A DNA stretch of 64,000 nucleotides from Polyangium mundeleinium. Its GTDB lineage: Bacteria > Myxococcota_A > Polyangia > Polyangiales > Polyangiaceae. Each line of letters opens with the position of its first letter. Positions within the stretch are counted from its first letter, which is position 1. Below, piece after piece: positions 59,741-63,947 of the stretch. The DNA is taken from positions 6,356,501-6,420,500 of the forward strand of contig NZ_JAQNDO010000001.1 of assembly GCF_028369105.1 (NCBI RefSeq). The letters are read 5' to 3'. The notes beneath the pieces were generated by a model. It ran no database searches. It saw only the letters and a list, made by a program, of their open reading frames with translations, and was not told the origin of the DNA. The position numbers and the translations under genes are program-made.

Positions 59741-60613
59741 TCAAAGCCCTCGCGTGTGCTCGGGCCGGAGCCGGATCCGGCCGGAGAGCGCGGCGTCGAT
59801 GACGTCGAGGATCCGCGCGCGATCGTGCGGGAGACGTCCCCCGATGGGCAGGTAATTCGACGCGTGGTTCGTCCGAAAAAGCGCCTCCGTGGGCGTGGCC
59901 TCGGCGACGAAGACACGCAGCTCGCGGAGCAGGCCGTGGACGTCGGGCAAAACGAAGCGGCCGCGTCGCTCCAGCGTGGCGAGGGGGGTGTCGGGGACGA
60001 CGGTCAACGTGAGCGCCGCGAGGTAATCGGGATCCATCGCAGTCGCGAGGCGAGCCGAGGCGCGCGCATGTTCGTCCGTGCGCTCGGTGCCGCCCGCGCC
60101 GAGGAGGAAAATCGCCGAGGTCTTCAGGCCCGCGTCCCGGGCGCGGCGCGCGGCCTCGACGTGATCGTCGAACGAGGAGCCCTTGGCAATCCGCTTGAGC
60201 ACGAGGTCGTCGCCGGATTCGGGGCCGATGTAAAGAAGCGCGAGGCCACGCTCGCGCAAGGTGCGGAGCTCGTCGCTGGTTTTCTCCAGCAAATTGGTCG
60301 CCATCGCGTAACAGCTCACCTGCCGGAGGTTCGGGAAGGCGCGGCGGCAGGCGTCGAGGAGGGCGAGCCAATGATCGAGGGGCAAAACGAGGGCATCCCC
60401 GTCGGCGACGAAGACCTTTTCCACGTGGTCGCCGAAGGCCGCGCCCGCGGACGTGATGTCTTGCAGGGTCTCGGCGAGGTCGCGGATGCGAAAGGTTTTG
60501 TCCCGGTACATGTCGCAGTACGTGCACTTGTTCCAGGAGCAGCCGATCGTGGCCTGCAGGATGTACGAGTGCGCCTCGCTGGGCGGACGGTAGAGCTTGC
60601 CTTCGTAGCGCAT
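59741..60613 (-). CDS. Radical SAM protein
   Basis: 290 residues. Cluster-binding CSWNKCTYCDMY near residue 25 (CX4CX2C spacing as in one branch of the family), the SAM-binding region EKVFVADGDALVLPLD, YAMATNLLEKT and LLYIGPESGDDLVLKRI. C-terminal part helical (ALFRTNHASNYLPIGGRLP). Probably uses a 4Fe-4S cluster and SAM for a radical reaction; substrate unknown. Close to a group often called biotin synthase-like or YgiQ-like only in name. ATG at 60613, divergent from EamA gene. Confidence 0.88.
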   Translation of the reverse strand: MRYEGKLYRPPSEAHSYILQATIGCSWNKCTYCDMYRDKTFRIRDLAETLQDITSAGAAFGDHVEKVFVADGDALVLPLDHWLALLDACRRAFPNLRQVSCYAMATNLLEKTSDELRTLRERGLALLYIGPESGDDLVLKRIAKGSSFDDHVEAARRARDAGLKTSAIFLLGAGGTERTDEHARASARLATAMDPDYLAALTLTVVPDTPLATLERRGRFVLPDVHGLLRELRVFVAEATPTEALFRTNHASNYLPIGGRLPHDRARILDVIDAALSGRIRLRPEHTRGL

Positions 60614-60771
60614 CGCCGCGAGGAGCCTACCCGAGCCGCGTGGAAGAGGCCAGCGGGCGGCCTGCCGACCCGCCGCGCGCGTGGTACCGTGCCGGCGCTG
60701 ATGCCTCCCGCCCCGCGACGCCGATCCTTTGCAGCACCAACCATCTGCGCCGCGGGCCGCGACCTGTGACG

Positions 60772-61656
60772 ATGTCCCCCCGCACCTCCACCGCGACCGG
60801 CTTCTCGGCCATCCTCCTCTGGTCCCTGCTCGCTCTCTTCACCACGGCGTCGGGCAAAGTCCCGCCGTTCCAGCTCGCCGCCATGACGTTTCTCGTGGGC
60901 GGCCTCGCGGGCGTCGCCACCTGGATCCCGCGGCCACACGCCATTCGATCGCTGAGGCAACGGCCCATCGTCTGGGCCCTCGGCACGGGCGGTCTCTTCG
61001 GGTATCACGCCCTCTATTTCGCGGCTTTGCGCTGGGCGCCGCCCGCCGAGTCCGGCCTCGTCAATTACCTCTGGCCCCTGCTCATCGTGCTCTTCTCGTC
61101 GTTTTTGCCCGGCGAGCGATTGCGCGCGGCCCATGTCGGCGGGGCGCTCCTCGGCTTCGGGGGGATCCTCGTGCTTTTCCTCGGCCGCGGCGCCCTGGAC
61201 GCCCGCGCCGAGCACCTGCCGGGGTATGCCTGCGCGTTCGCGGCAGCCTTCGTATGGGCGGGGTATTCCGTTCTCTCGCGGCGCTTCGGCGAGGTCCCGA
61301 CCGATGCCGTGGCCGGCTTCTGCCTGGCGACCTCCGCCCTGAGCTTCCTCGGGCATCTCGTATTCGAAACGACCGTTTGGCCTGAAAACACGACCCAATG
61401 GCTCGCGCTCCTCGCGCTCGGCGTCGGCCCGGTCGGGATCGCGTTTTATGTGTGGGACATCGGCGTGAAGCGCGGGGACATCCGGCTGCTCGGCGTGGCG
61501 TCGTATGCCGCGCCGGTGTTATCGACCTCGATCCTCGTCCTCGCCGGCCATGCGGAGCCGAGCTTCACGCTCGCCGTCTCCTGCGGGCTGATCGTCGCGG
61601 GCGCGCTGGTCGCGACGCTCGGGACGAAGCGCCCCGATCCACTGGTCTCATCGTGA
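60772..61656 (+). CDS. EamA-family (DMT) transporter
   Basis: 294 residues, about ten membrane helices in two repeats (AILLWSLLALFTTASG, LAAMTFLVGGLAGVATW, VNYLWPLLIVLFSSFL, VGGALLGFGGILVLFLG; then YACAFAAAFVWAGYSVL, LALLALGVGPVGIAFYVWD, VASYAAPVLSTSILVLAG, FTLAVSCGLIVAGALVATL). Typical DMT length and layout; exports amino acids or other small metabolites. ATG at 60772 chosen over an upstream extension. Divergent from the radical SAM gene. Confidence 0.9.
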   Translation: MSPRTSTATGFSAILLWSLLALFTTASGKVPPFQLAAMTFLVGGLAGVATWIPRPHAIRSLRQRPIVWALGTGGLFGYHALYFAALRWAPPAESGLVNYLWPLLIVLFSSFLPGERLRAAHVGGALLGFGGILVLFLGRGALDARAEHLPGYACAFAAAFVWAGYSVLSRRFGEVPTDAVAGFCLATSALSFLGHLVFETTVWPENTTQWLALLALGVGPVGIAFYVWDIGVKRGDIRLLGVASYAAPVLSTSILVLAGHAEPSFTLAVSCGLIVAGALVATLGTKRPDPLVSS

Positions 61657-61669
61657 AGCCGCAGAGCTG

Positions 61670-61772
61670 GGGCGTTGCCCCAGGCCCCAGGAGGGGGCTG
61701 TCCGCCCCCTCCACCCCGGACCAGCCAGGGGCTGGACCCAGGGTCGATGAACTGCGCGATGCGCAGTTCATC
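61670..61772. repeat. Composite hairpin element, copy A
   Basis: GGGGGCTGTCCGCCCCCT, CCACCCCGGACCAGCCAGG and GGCTGGACCCAGGG are followed by a perfect 12-bp stem (GATGAACTGCGC-GAT-GCGCAGTTCATC, 61746-61772). The first part recurs inverted at 62562-62640. No coding. Reminiscent of REP-type intergenic elements; it begins 14 bases after the EamA stop and could also end transcription. Confidence 0.75.
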
Positions 61773-61877
61773 GAACAGGCCCGGGTCAAGACCGGTAGCG
61801 GCGTTGCCAACCGAGACAGGCACGCGGCCTTCCAGCGGGTCGGTGGTAAGACCATGGGGGGTCGCTGGCGTCGGTTC

Positions 61878-61904
61878 GAGGAGCTGCGCGATGCGCAGTT
61901 CCTC
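61878..61904. repeat. Hairpin element, copy B (core only)
   Basis: GAGGAGCTGCGC-GAT-GCGCAGTTCCTC, nearly perfect 12-bp stem with the same CTGCGC/GCGCAG core as copies A and C. Flanking GC-rich parts absent. Confidence 0.7.
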
Positions 61905-61996
61905 GATGAGGCCGTGTCGTCAAGCTTGGGGGCCGAGCCAAAAGGCGACGGGGACGTGTGTGCGAGAGATGGGGGGGCATGGTCTGAAGAGACGAC

Positions 61997-62230
61997 GTCG
62001 AGCCTCCGGAGGTACGAGGCCGTGCCTTGGAGGGACGGGAACGTGTCTCTGGGGCGTGCGGTCGAGCCTCCGGAGGTACGAGGCCGTGCCTTGGAGGGAC
62101 GGGGTCGTGCCTTGGAGGGACGGGAACGTGTCTCTGGGGCGTGCGGTCGAGCCTCCGGAGGTACGAGGCCGTGCCTTGGAGGTACGAGGCCGTGCCTTGG
62201 AGGGACGAGGCCGTGCCTTGGAGGAACGGG
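61997..62230. repeat. 21-bp degenerate tandem repeat region
   Basis: Repeats of GAGGTACGAGGCCGTGCCTT-like 21-base units, arranged in higher-order blocks with a GGGAACGTGTCTCTGGGGCG spacer. The unit is a multiple of three, so both strands show long open frames with repeating heptapeptides (complement strand PPRHGLV), but no start, signal or domain supports a gene. Minisatellite. Confidence 0.7.
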
Positions 62231-62529
62231 GGCGATGGTAGGCGCGGCGGGCCCGTGGCGTCGAGAGATGGGCACGATGTAGGGAGACCATGGGCTCATC
62301 GCCGAAGACCTACGGCCCCATTGCGTGGAGGGACGGAGCCGTGCCGTTTGGAACGTGAGGCCACCGCGTCACGCCATGACGTCATGCGACGAGACGTTGG
62401 CCGCCGACCTGTCAGCGCTGCGGCCTTTGGTAGGCAGGCTCATCCCTGGTCTTGACCGGCGGAGGCGTTCCCCACCAACACAGCCGCGCTGCGGCTTCTG
62501 CTGGCCCCCCGGCTCCTTCGTCGGCCCGT

Positions 62530-62640
62530 TTGAAAAACTGCGCGGAGCGCAGTTTTTCAACCCTGGGTCCAGCCCCTGGCTGGTCCGGGGTCGAGGGGGC
62601 GGACAGCCCCCCGCGGGGACCGGGGCGGCGCCCCGGCGCG
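62530..62640. repeat. Composite hairpin element, copy C (inverted)
   Basis: A perfect 14-bp stem (TTGAAAAACTGCGC-GGA, GCGCAGTTTTTCAA; 62530-62560) followed by the reverse complement of the GC-rich part of copy A (CCCTGGGTCCAGCCCCTGG, CTGGTCCGGGG, GGGGGCGGACAGCCCCC). It lies between two gene-free stretches. Confidence 0.75.
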
Positions 62641-62681
62641 GCGCTTCCCAGAGGAGACCCATGCTCAGCCCGTAGAGCAGC

Positions 62682-63947
62682 CTATTTGCTCGACGGCGTC
62701 CCCGATCGTTTCTCGGAAAAGCCGTGTTCTTCGAGCTTCGCGTAGAGCTGCGGGCGCGGAATGCCGAGGAGCTTGGCCGCCAGGGTGCGGTTGCCGTCGG
62801 CGCGCTGGAGCGCGGACGCGAGCAGATCCCGCTCCAGCCGGGCCACGGCCTCGCGCAGTGGAAGGCCGAGGTAGCGGTTCGTGGGCTCGGTCGGGGACGC
62901 GGGGGTCGCGAGCTCGGGCGGGAGCGCGTCGGCGTCGATGACCTCGCCGTGGCACATTTCGGCCGCGCGGCGGACCACGAGGAACAGCTCGCGGACGTTG
63001 CCCGGCCAGTCGTGGCGCACGAGCGCGGCCATCGCCTCCTCGGAGATCGCGCGCGCGCGTGTTCCCACGATCGCCCGCGAGACGAGCAGCGCCACGTCGC
63101 TCCGGCGCTCGCGCAGCGGTGGAACGGCGATTTCGAGGACCGCGAGCTGATAATAAAGCTCCGCGATCAGAGGGACCTCCAGTGAGCCGGGCGCGAGCCG
63201 CGCCAGCGTGACGACGCGGACCGGCGGTGATTCGGAGAGCCAAGCGGCGAACGCGCCTTGCGCCGCCGGCGTCAGATCCCCCGCGCCGTCGACGAGGAGG
63301 GTTCCGCCCGCGCGCGCGCCTGCGAGCATCCCCCGAAGCTCGGCGGCGTCCGTCGACGGATCGACGCGCACGACGACGAGCGGCTCGCTGGCGCGGCTCG
63401 AATACTCGTGGATCGCGCGGGCCACGAGCTCCTTGCCGGCGCCGGCCTCGCCCTTGACGAGCACGGGGGCCTGCGATCCGGCGGCGCGGCCGATGAGCTT
63501 CCAGACTGCGTGCATGGCCGCGCTCCGCCCTACGAGCGGCGTGCTCTCCGCGAGTGCCTCCACGGCCGCCGGAGGCGCGCGCCGCTGCTTGACCGCGCGC
63601 GCGACGGTGGCGACGAGGCGCTGCAAATCGAAGGGTTTTGTCAGATAATCGAAGGCCCCGTCGCGCATCGCCTCGATGGTGCGCTCGCCGTCGTCGTACG
63701 CGGTGGCCACGATCACGGGCAGATCGCGGTGTTGGCCCGTCCGGAGCTCGCGCAAGAGCTCGAGGCCGCTGCCGTCCTTGAGACGGATGTCGACCAGGGC
63801 GCAGTCGAACGTGTTCGGCTCGGCGAGCCGCGTCCGCGCCTCGGCCAGGCTCGCGGCGGCCACGGTCGTGTGCCCCACGCGCGCCAGGGCTGTCGCGAGC
63901 CCGAGCCGGATGCCTTTTTCGTCGTCCACGATGAGCACCGTGCTCAT
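62682..63947 (-). CDS. NtrC-like response regulator lacking GAFTGA
   Basis: 421 residues. Receiver at 1-120 (LIVDDEKGIRLGLATALA, phospho-Asp in CALVDIRLKDGSG, TKP). The AAA+ domain keeps Walker A (KGEAGAGKELVARAIHE) and WPGNVREL, but the stretch that normally holds the sigma-54 contact loop is deleted (VRVDPSTDAAELRG-MLAGARAGG) and Walker B reads LLVDGAGDL without DE. So it cannot contact or remodel sigma-54. C-terminal Fis-type helix-turn-helix (GNRTLAAKLLGIPRPQLYAKL). It is probably a sigma-54-independent regulator or repressor. Its start overlaps the stop of a kinase gene (ATGA). Confidence 0.85.
   Translation of the reverse strand: MSTVLIVDDEKGIRLGLATALARVGHTTVAAASLAEARTRLAEPNTFDCALVDIRLKDGSGLELLRELRTGQHRDLPVIVATAYDDGERTIEAMRDGAFDYLTKPFDLQRLVATVARAVKQRRAPPAAVEALAESTPLVGRSAAMHAVWKLIGRAAGSQAPVLVKGEAGAGKELVARAIHEYSSRASEPLVVVRVDPSTDAAELRGMLAGARAGGTLLVDGAGDLTPAAQGAFAAWLSESPPVRVVTLARLAPGSLEVPLIAELYYQLAVLEIAVPPLRERRSDVALLVSRAIVGTRARAISEEAMAALVRHDWPGNVRELFLVVRRAAEMCHGEVIDADALPPELATPASPTEPTNRYLGLPLREAVARLERDLLASALQRADGNRTLAAKLLGIPRPQLYAKLEEHGFSEKRSGTPSSK

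Follow-up and report, generated by a model that had tools for sequence, protein, structure and literature searches.

Near the right-hand end of the window, the whole 64,000-nt stretch of DNA that was analysed, a gene for an EamA-type membrane protein and a gene for a sigma54-type response regulator run toward each other, and a hairpin-rich repeat element lies between them (Table 1). For the EamA-type gene, our own gene caller places the start at 60766. The element is present as a long-form copy that spans about 61640 to 62668, wider than the 61670 to 62640 first given in a preliminary description of this DNA. That description reported three hairpins of the form CTGCGC-NNN-GCGCAG, all of which are real. 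The exact core occurs three times in the window; when up to one mismatch is allowed, there are six occurrences, whereas 100 shuffles averaged 1.5 and never reached six. A further claim, that two of the hairpins carry an identical 50-base part in opposite orientation, stands as to the inverted stretch, which is 52 nt long, but not as to identity, because the two versions differ by one mismatch. The 52-nt stretch sits within inverted arms of 103 nt, whose complementarity is 84% in this copy.

The window copy is a rare, approximately 1-kb long form of the element, with one tip truncated, and is partly decayed. What is left of its left tip now encodes the final residues of the EamA-type gene, which ends with a TGA stop codon at 61654-61656. 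The sequences that flank the copy (locus L016) agree at one of nine bases, and the copy, whose left tip is damaged, shows no target duplication. Two features distinguish the long form: the class A variant hairpin, which is an additional hairpin, and a 607-nt insert holding a 21-nt tandem repeat (62008-62228). Among the stretches compared, inserts like this one were found at six loci in the same genome, the window included, with the other five at 70-85% identity. A similar insert occurs at one Polyangium fumosum locus (L189), where its neighbour is the ortholog of the sigma54-type regulator gene. On inspection, the 607-nt insert has no evident coding role.

Table 1. Features of the element copy in the window and of its immediate surroundings (positions are those of the window)
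Feature	Position	Strand	Basis or remark
Flanking gene, EamA-type membrane protein	60640..61656	+	name by sequence impression, not family search
Left tip, truncated (CACTGGTCTCATC of CTGAGCACTGGTCTCATC-type tip)	61640..61652	+	sequence, congener comparison
Left arm hairpin a (CTGGGGCGTTGCCCCAG)	61667..61683	.	sequence
Left arm hairpin b (GGAGGGGGCTGTCCGCCCCCTCC)	61690..61712	.	sequence
Left arm hairpin c (CCAGCCAGGGGCTGG)	61721..61735	.	sequence
Class A loop-3 hairpin (TCGATGAACTGCGC GAT GCGCAGTTCATCGA)	61744..61774	.	sequence
Class A variant hairpin (TCGAGGAGCTGCGC GAT GCGCAGTTCCTCGA, one G-T pair)	61876..61906	.	sequence
607-nt insert of long form	61914..62520	.	sequence comparison
Class B loop-3 hairpin (TTGAAAAACTGCGC GGA GCGCAGTTTTTCAA)	62530..62560	.	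sequence
Right arm hairpin c (CCAGCCCCTGGCTGG)	62569..62583	.	sequence
Right arm hairpin b (GGGGGCGGACAGCCCCC)	62595..62611	.	sequence
Right arm hairpin a (CCGGGGCGGCGCCCCGG)	62620..62636	.	sequence
Right tip, near-intact terminal inverted repeat (CTGAGCATGGGTCTCCTC on minus strand)	62651..62668	-	one mismatch to consensus
Host DNA, right junction (CCCGTAGAGCAGC)	62669..62681	.	letters identical in unoccupied site of G105
Flanking gene, sigma54-type response regulator	62682..63947	-	name by sequence impression, not family search

A genus-restricted family of nested hairpins

The preliminary description had called for a genome-wide count of the core and would have been contradicted by a lack of further copies. 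In the window's own genome (about 13.24-13.25 Mb), the longer pattern AACTGCGCNNNGCGCAGTT is found 217 times and the reversed-pattern control not once. Among 144 genomes sampled from the order, the core is present in all six Polyangium genomes, 54 to 488 times each (230 times in congener G105 and 434 times in G116), and in none of the 138 genomes outside the genus. A scan of named genomes for arm plus core, which may omit records very near the window's genome, returned 19 stretches, all of them from Polyangium fumosum DSM 14668 or Polyangium sp. 15x6. Within this sample, the element family is restricted to the genus Polyangium.

Eleven well-preserved copies of the element were aligned. An intact element contains two loop-3 hairpins; these are followed on each outer side by a GC-rich arm, built of three small hairpins, and, in well-preserved copies, by an 18-bp tip (CTGAGCAYKGGTCTCATC). 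Among the 14 best-preserved copies, 12 are 350-392 bp long and the other two are about 1 kb. The distance between neighbouring hairpins was measured in 100 stretches of 20 kb, of which 82 were picked around element sites and 18 elsewhere; it is mostly 121-122 nt, as in 29 pairs, or 150-152 nt, as in 48. There are three main hairpin classes, designated A (TCGATGAACTGCGC), B (TTGAAAAACTGCGC), and C (TGGAAGAACTGCGC). Hairpins with GCATCGAC(T/C)GC stems, some of them arranged as short repeated sub-units, were also observed at L200, L201, L215, L223, and L226 in G107 and G116, and these look like additional classes of the same family.

Pairing within the loop-3 stems is pervasive. Each of ten outer stem positions is paired in about 90-97% of 397 distinct hairpin contexts, which were located by a short core plus a flanking arm motif, and the most variable stem positions pair far above the level given by independent columns (e.g., 96.7% versus 37.1%). 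Seventeen different 8-nt arms are perfectly paired, and some orthologous hairpins (e.g., at locus 6931809) have both halves of the stem altered from one species to the next. The covariation of stem ends noted in the preliminary description is indeed seen among the three window hairpins, but genome-wide the variation comes mostly from a few recurring hairpin classes that behave as blocks, and a large number of independent compensatory changes is therefore not claimed. The stem is kept across hairpin variants. The predicted fold of one intact copy is a long stem bearing hairpins in a junction. Its folding energy has z = -14 versus shuffles, which mainly reflects how the element is built from inverted repeats.

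The hairpins may form a structured RNA, as had also been proposed. A known RNA family was considered for them and set aside, as Rfam returned four matches in 60600-63500, all far below the gathering score and none above threshold. Terminator-like sites, consisting of a stem and a T run, number zero in 61600-62720, a region that covers the window copy only, and 0.5 were expected from shuffles. Among the three main classes, a T run is found only in class B, where TTTTT lies inside the paired stem and is not counted as a tail by the scanner.

Tips, target duplications, and a probable partner insertion sequence

Evidence for transposition comes from the outer ends of the element. An exact search with a 14-base tip pattern yields 23 matches in the genome. 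Facing tips form 25 pairs with at most four mismatches per tip, 14 of which have at most one mismatch in total; these numbers depend on a widened hairpin rule, since a stricter one gave only two pairs. Nine-base-pair target duplications flank 10 of the 14 best pairs (seven exact and three at eight of nine bases), and across all 25 pairs, duplications of at least eight of nine bases number 11. By random re-pairing, a match of eight of nine or better arises in 0.5% of cases, and a match of nine of nine arose in none of 100,000. The loci used here are a nonrandom set: many (30 loci and 20 stretches, for 96 listed tip places) were chosen for exact tips, and none for their duplications. Four of the 14 best pairs are without a clear duplication: the L243 pair is composite and includes a remnant of an insertion sequence, L311 agrees only at a one-base offset, and the flanks of L058 and L299 show no 9-bp duplication match. 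Most copies, the window copy included, do not have both tips intact.

The same genome carries four near-identical, full-length copies of a 1504-bp insertion sequence of the IS4 family, IS50/Tn5 group (L244:4742-6245, L248, L106, and L138; near 5.33, 5.45, 6.28, and 8.04 Mb). The 3' end of its transposase gene is adjacent to a tip at 5332742 and 5450884, a further copy of the gene is found at 6280186, and a diverged remnant is found at 5312019. The ends of the insertion sequence (CTGAGCATTGGTTCCATC and CTGAGCACTGGTCTCATC) and the element tips (CTGAGCAYKGGTCTCATC) share terminal inverted repeats. Only these outermost ~18 bp are common to the two; by eye, their interiors look unrelated. Two of the four insertion-sequence copies are flanked by exact 9-bp duplications (GGCACGGCC and GGCCGTGCC), one by a duplication at eight of nine bases, and one by none.

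The transposase has 475 residues and matches the NCBIfam IS4-family equivalog NF033590 with 254.6 bits, compared with a cut-off of 160. Its Pfam domains are those for Tn5 DNA binding, DDE, and dimerisation; Tn5 transposases are its best solved relatives, and a YREK motif (YSQRWRIEDFFRTWK) is located at residue 331. The portion of PMC2266710 that tabulates the IS50 subgroup lists lengths of 1350-1550 bp, CW ends, 8-9 bp repeats, and the presence of YREK. With 1504 bp, CT ends, 9-bp repeats, and YREK, the partner insertion sequence belongs with this subgroup. No match to the transposase was found in G105 despite the 230 cores of that genome, which indicates that copies can persist without the transposase. 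In G115 (P. fumosum), many partial insertion-sequence matches lie at contig ends, and several copies are suggested.

Insertion sequence and element are also linked by location. Of the four full-length insertion sequences, three are located within an element arm; two of these sit in hairpin c and are flanked by exact duplications. By area alone, the chance of such a distribution is about 1e-7. Elements may therefore steer where new insertions fall.

Position among genes and at orthologous junctions

Gene context was assigned with a small, purpose-made, nonstandard gene caller, which classified 107 of 108 loci (one lies at the edge of its stretch). Element loci comprise 58 convergent, 45 tandem, and 4 divergent gaps, compared with 97 convergent, 530 tandem, and 267 divergent among 894 element-free gaps of at least 30 nt. 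Gene 3' ends that face an element lie within 130 nt of a hairpin, slightly above one arm length, in 124 of 161 cases; for gene 5' ends, the corresponding figure is 6 of 53. A called gene overlaps the element at 2 of the 107 loci and sits between hairpins. Thirteen young copies, hand-picked as 11 pairs with duplications of at least eight of nine bases plus L311 and L325 (one-base-offset flank matches), are distributed as six convergent, six tandem, and one divergent. With 6 of 13 already convergent, the positional bias is present early.

The gene ends of 11 of these loci were sought in five congeners, and 40 orthologous junctions were compared; in all but three of the remaining cells of this 11 by 5 table, the flanks were on different contigs, far apart, or unmatched. 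At least two family hairpins are present at 21 junctions, one is present at 5, 11 junctions are empty, and 3 have other content. These counts were corrected by eye, with an unrelated pair at 3478034 in G105 removed and an imperfect family hairpin at 5021060 in G088 added, and the longest gaps were compared in part only. Empty junctions have gaps of at most 66 nt, and in 10 of the 11 the gap does not exceed 51 nt; an unrelated inverted repeat is present in one of the 11, at 3120847 in G088. At the empty junctions of 8150938 (G116 and G088), 3759105 (G105), and 6952292 (G088 and G105), the stop codons abut or are at most 2 nt apart in the alignment. Beyond the 40, gaps of 382, 445, and 117 nt were obtained from coordinates alone for 6952292 in G115, G116, and G107. 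Junctions that hold an element in the window's genome measure 0-21 nt in several congeners. The empty sites are unpolarised, and loss rather than insertion is possible at single loci.

At the window locus, the element is absent in G105 and G107; in G116, the gap is longer and holds no family hairpin. From the point of the left tip onward, the EamA-type gene has a different C-terminal end in G105 and G107, and the right junction (CCCGTAGAGCAGC) is unchanged in G105. To judge from this alignment, an insertion that was accompanied by the loss of some target DNA most likely remade the end of the EamA-type gene and gave it an element-derived terminus and stop codon. Extra coding-like sequence was observed in the same convergent junction at L223 (G116, locus 8802496) and L231 (G107, locus 5610659), each in a single congener and in one case with an element arm on one side and a full element on the other, which suggests that such junctions gather other DNA as well.

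Along the 13.24-Mb chromosome, 100 loci are concentrated around 6.43 Mb (Rayleigh test, p about 1e-21). This test used only loop types GAH and GGA, for which the listings are complete (149 of 217 sites). The GAH and GGA sites all fall in the interval from 1.31 to 10.19 Mb and are mostly found at 5-8 Mb; one other element is at 13.2 Mb. The best DnaA match places dnaA at 11.65 Mb and not at the contig start. With dnaA in that position, the cluster is only roughly opposite the origin: its centre lies 5.2 Mb from dnaA, compared with about 5.03 Mb expected for a cluster opposite dnaA, and the GC skew is weak.

Origin of the element and its relation to known systems

We propose, with a probability of roughly 85%, that the feature in the window is one long and partly decayed example of an IS50-group miniature inverted-repeat transposable element (MITE) that is restricted to the genus and likely moved by an IS4-family transposase. 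The MITE is nonautonomous, with nested hairpins, ends of the CTGAGCAYKGGTCTCATC type, and a size of about 350-390 bp, or about 1 kb in the long form. The part of the preliminary description that saw a dispersed, palindromic, mobile-type intergenic repeat is borne out. In the mechanism we envisage, the transposase encoded by the 1504-bp insertion sequence would bind the element tips, which nearly match its own ends, and the bound element would be cut out and pasted elsewhere, making the 9-bp duplication. Shared ends and an equal duplication length suggest that the mover is this transposase or a close relative acting in trans. Weighing against the proposal are the restriction of the shared sequence to the tips, the scarcity of copies with both tips intact, the four best tip pairs that have no clear duplication, and the lack of a transposase match in G105.

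The preliminary description favoured a REP/IS200-type element, that is, a REP or REPIN repeat spread by a Y1 tyrosine transposase (a RAYT, related to IS200/IS605). Extragenic palindromes, inverted hairpin pairs, high copy number, and complementary variation are what such a repeat would display, but we consider this origin scarcely credible. A search for the REP-associated transposase with PF01797 gave no match in the window's own genome, G105, or G116; the domain was matched at four loci in three congeners (G088, G107, and G115), none of which has the core or an exact tip within roughly 3.2 kb. Moreover, single-strand transposition does not fit 9-bp duplications and IS50-type ends, and the GT(A/G)G head expected at the hairpin foot is present in only 3 of 300 class A and 0 of 103 class B hairpins but in 65 of 180 of class C. 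Shared ends, 9-bp duplications, and the partner insertion sequence point to a DDE transposase of the IS4 family, and with no Y1 transposase found in the genome they argue for an IS50-group MITE. The residence of insertion sequences in element arms, above all in hairpin c, and the insertion-sequence remnant in the L243 pair might instead mean that old host terminator arrays are favoured by the insertion sequence and that the tips are merely its scars. This is very unlikely: well-preserved copies have a tip on either outer side, about equally far out, the whole element is missing at orthologous sites, and we reject the reading because the duplications flank the whole element. Mobile elements commonly gather far from the replication origin. 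Clustering in one half of the chromosome, with the best DnaA match at 11.65 Mb, could be taken for a chromosome-organising or DNA-uptake signal, a notion that the inexact opposition to dnaA and the weak GC skew make barely tenable; target duplications and patchy presence suit a mobile element.

Host function is a more serious contender than these, though we would bet against it. According to this explanation, mobility accounts for the origin of the element and selection for its place, the element being retained mainly for what it does between genes arranged tail to tail, either as a mobile terminator that works in both directions or as a protector of mRNA 3' ends. The excess of convergent and the scarcity of divergent gaps are consistent with it, as are the closeness of hairpins to gene 3' ends rather than 5' ends, the very short spacing that element-bearing junctions of the window's genome have in several congeners, the near-constant stem pairing, and the fold of the intact copy, which largely reflects inverted-repeat design. 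However, the window copy has no terminator-like site, and a T run is confined to class B. Avoidance of promoters and genes would by itself yield part of the bias, and the same bias in the thirteen young copies could equally reflect targeting. Within the MITE interpretation, the 3'-end bias may arise from targeting plus purifying selection, and hairpin arrays may be tolerated, and perhaps kept, through action at transcript 3' ends; a role at transcript ends, to which the location points, is plausible. More tentatively, and with the odds against us, we posit that the element could serve the genus as a mobile bidirectional gene-end module. Such a module would home to tail-to-tail junctions with almost no space between stop codons. 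It would offer hairpins in either direction and, in some cases, a new stop codon, and selection to keep the stem would accompany the exchange or re-pairing of hairpin classes at orthologous sites.

This family offers a clear case of a short noncoding element that has spread to more than 100 gene ends in one genome. With a likely transposase, target duplications, and orthologous empty sites in hand, the gain of gene-end signals by transposition is directly testable, as is whether the tail-to-tail bias reflects insertion targeting or selection.

No description of this element family was found in searches of the open-licence literature. MIC231, a mobile cassette paired with IS231 of the IS4 family, combines terminal inverted repeats, target duplication, many copies, and secondary structure. 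The sections of PMC2229807 that bear on the subject attribute the same traits to RUP (with IS630-Spn1) and to Correia/NEMIS, and they describe RUP tips as resembling those of a full insertion sequence. The Polyangium element has terminal inverted repeats, target duplication, copy number, and secondary structure in common with MITEs of the RUP, Correia, and MIC231 type. Unlike them, it is GC-rich, has IS50-group ends and a 9-bp duplication, contains about nine nested hairpins of interchangeable classes, and lies close behind stop codons. The IS50 subgroup, to which the relatives of Tn5 belong, resembles the partner insertion sequence, whereas the hairpin element itself is without a transposase and has the tips alone in common with it. 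REP, BIME, and REPIN repeats with RAYTs are likewise extragenic palindromes in inverted pairs and mosaic units, present in hundreds of copies; the Polyangium element differs from them in its 9-bp duplication, in the near absence of the GT(A/G)G head from classes A and B, and in that no Y1 partner was found for it. Finally, repeated palindromes that are terminator-like or lie within terminators are described, in the passages concerned, for SPRITE and for the uptake-sequence terminators of Neisseria and Pasteurellaceae (PMC10969869 and PMC1852404). In contrast to these, the Polyangium element is a 350-bp transposable unit whose class A and C hairpins are without a T tail.
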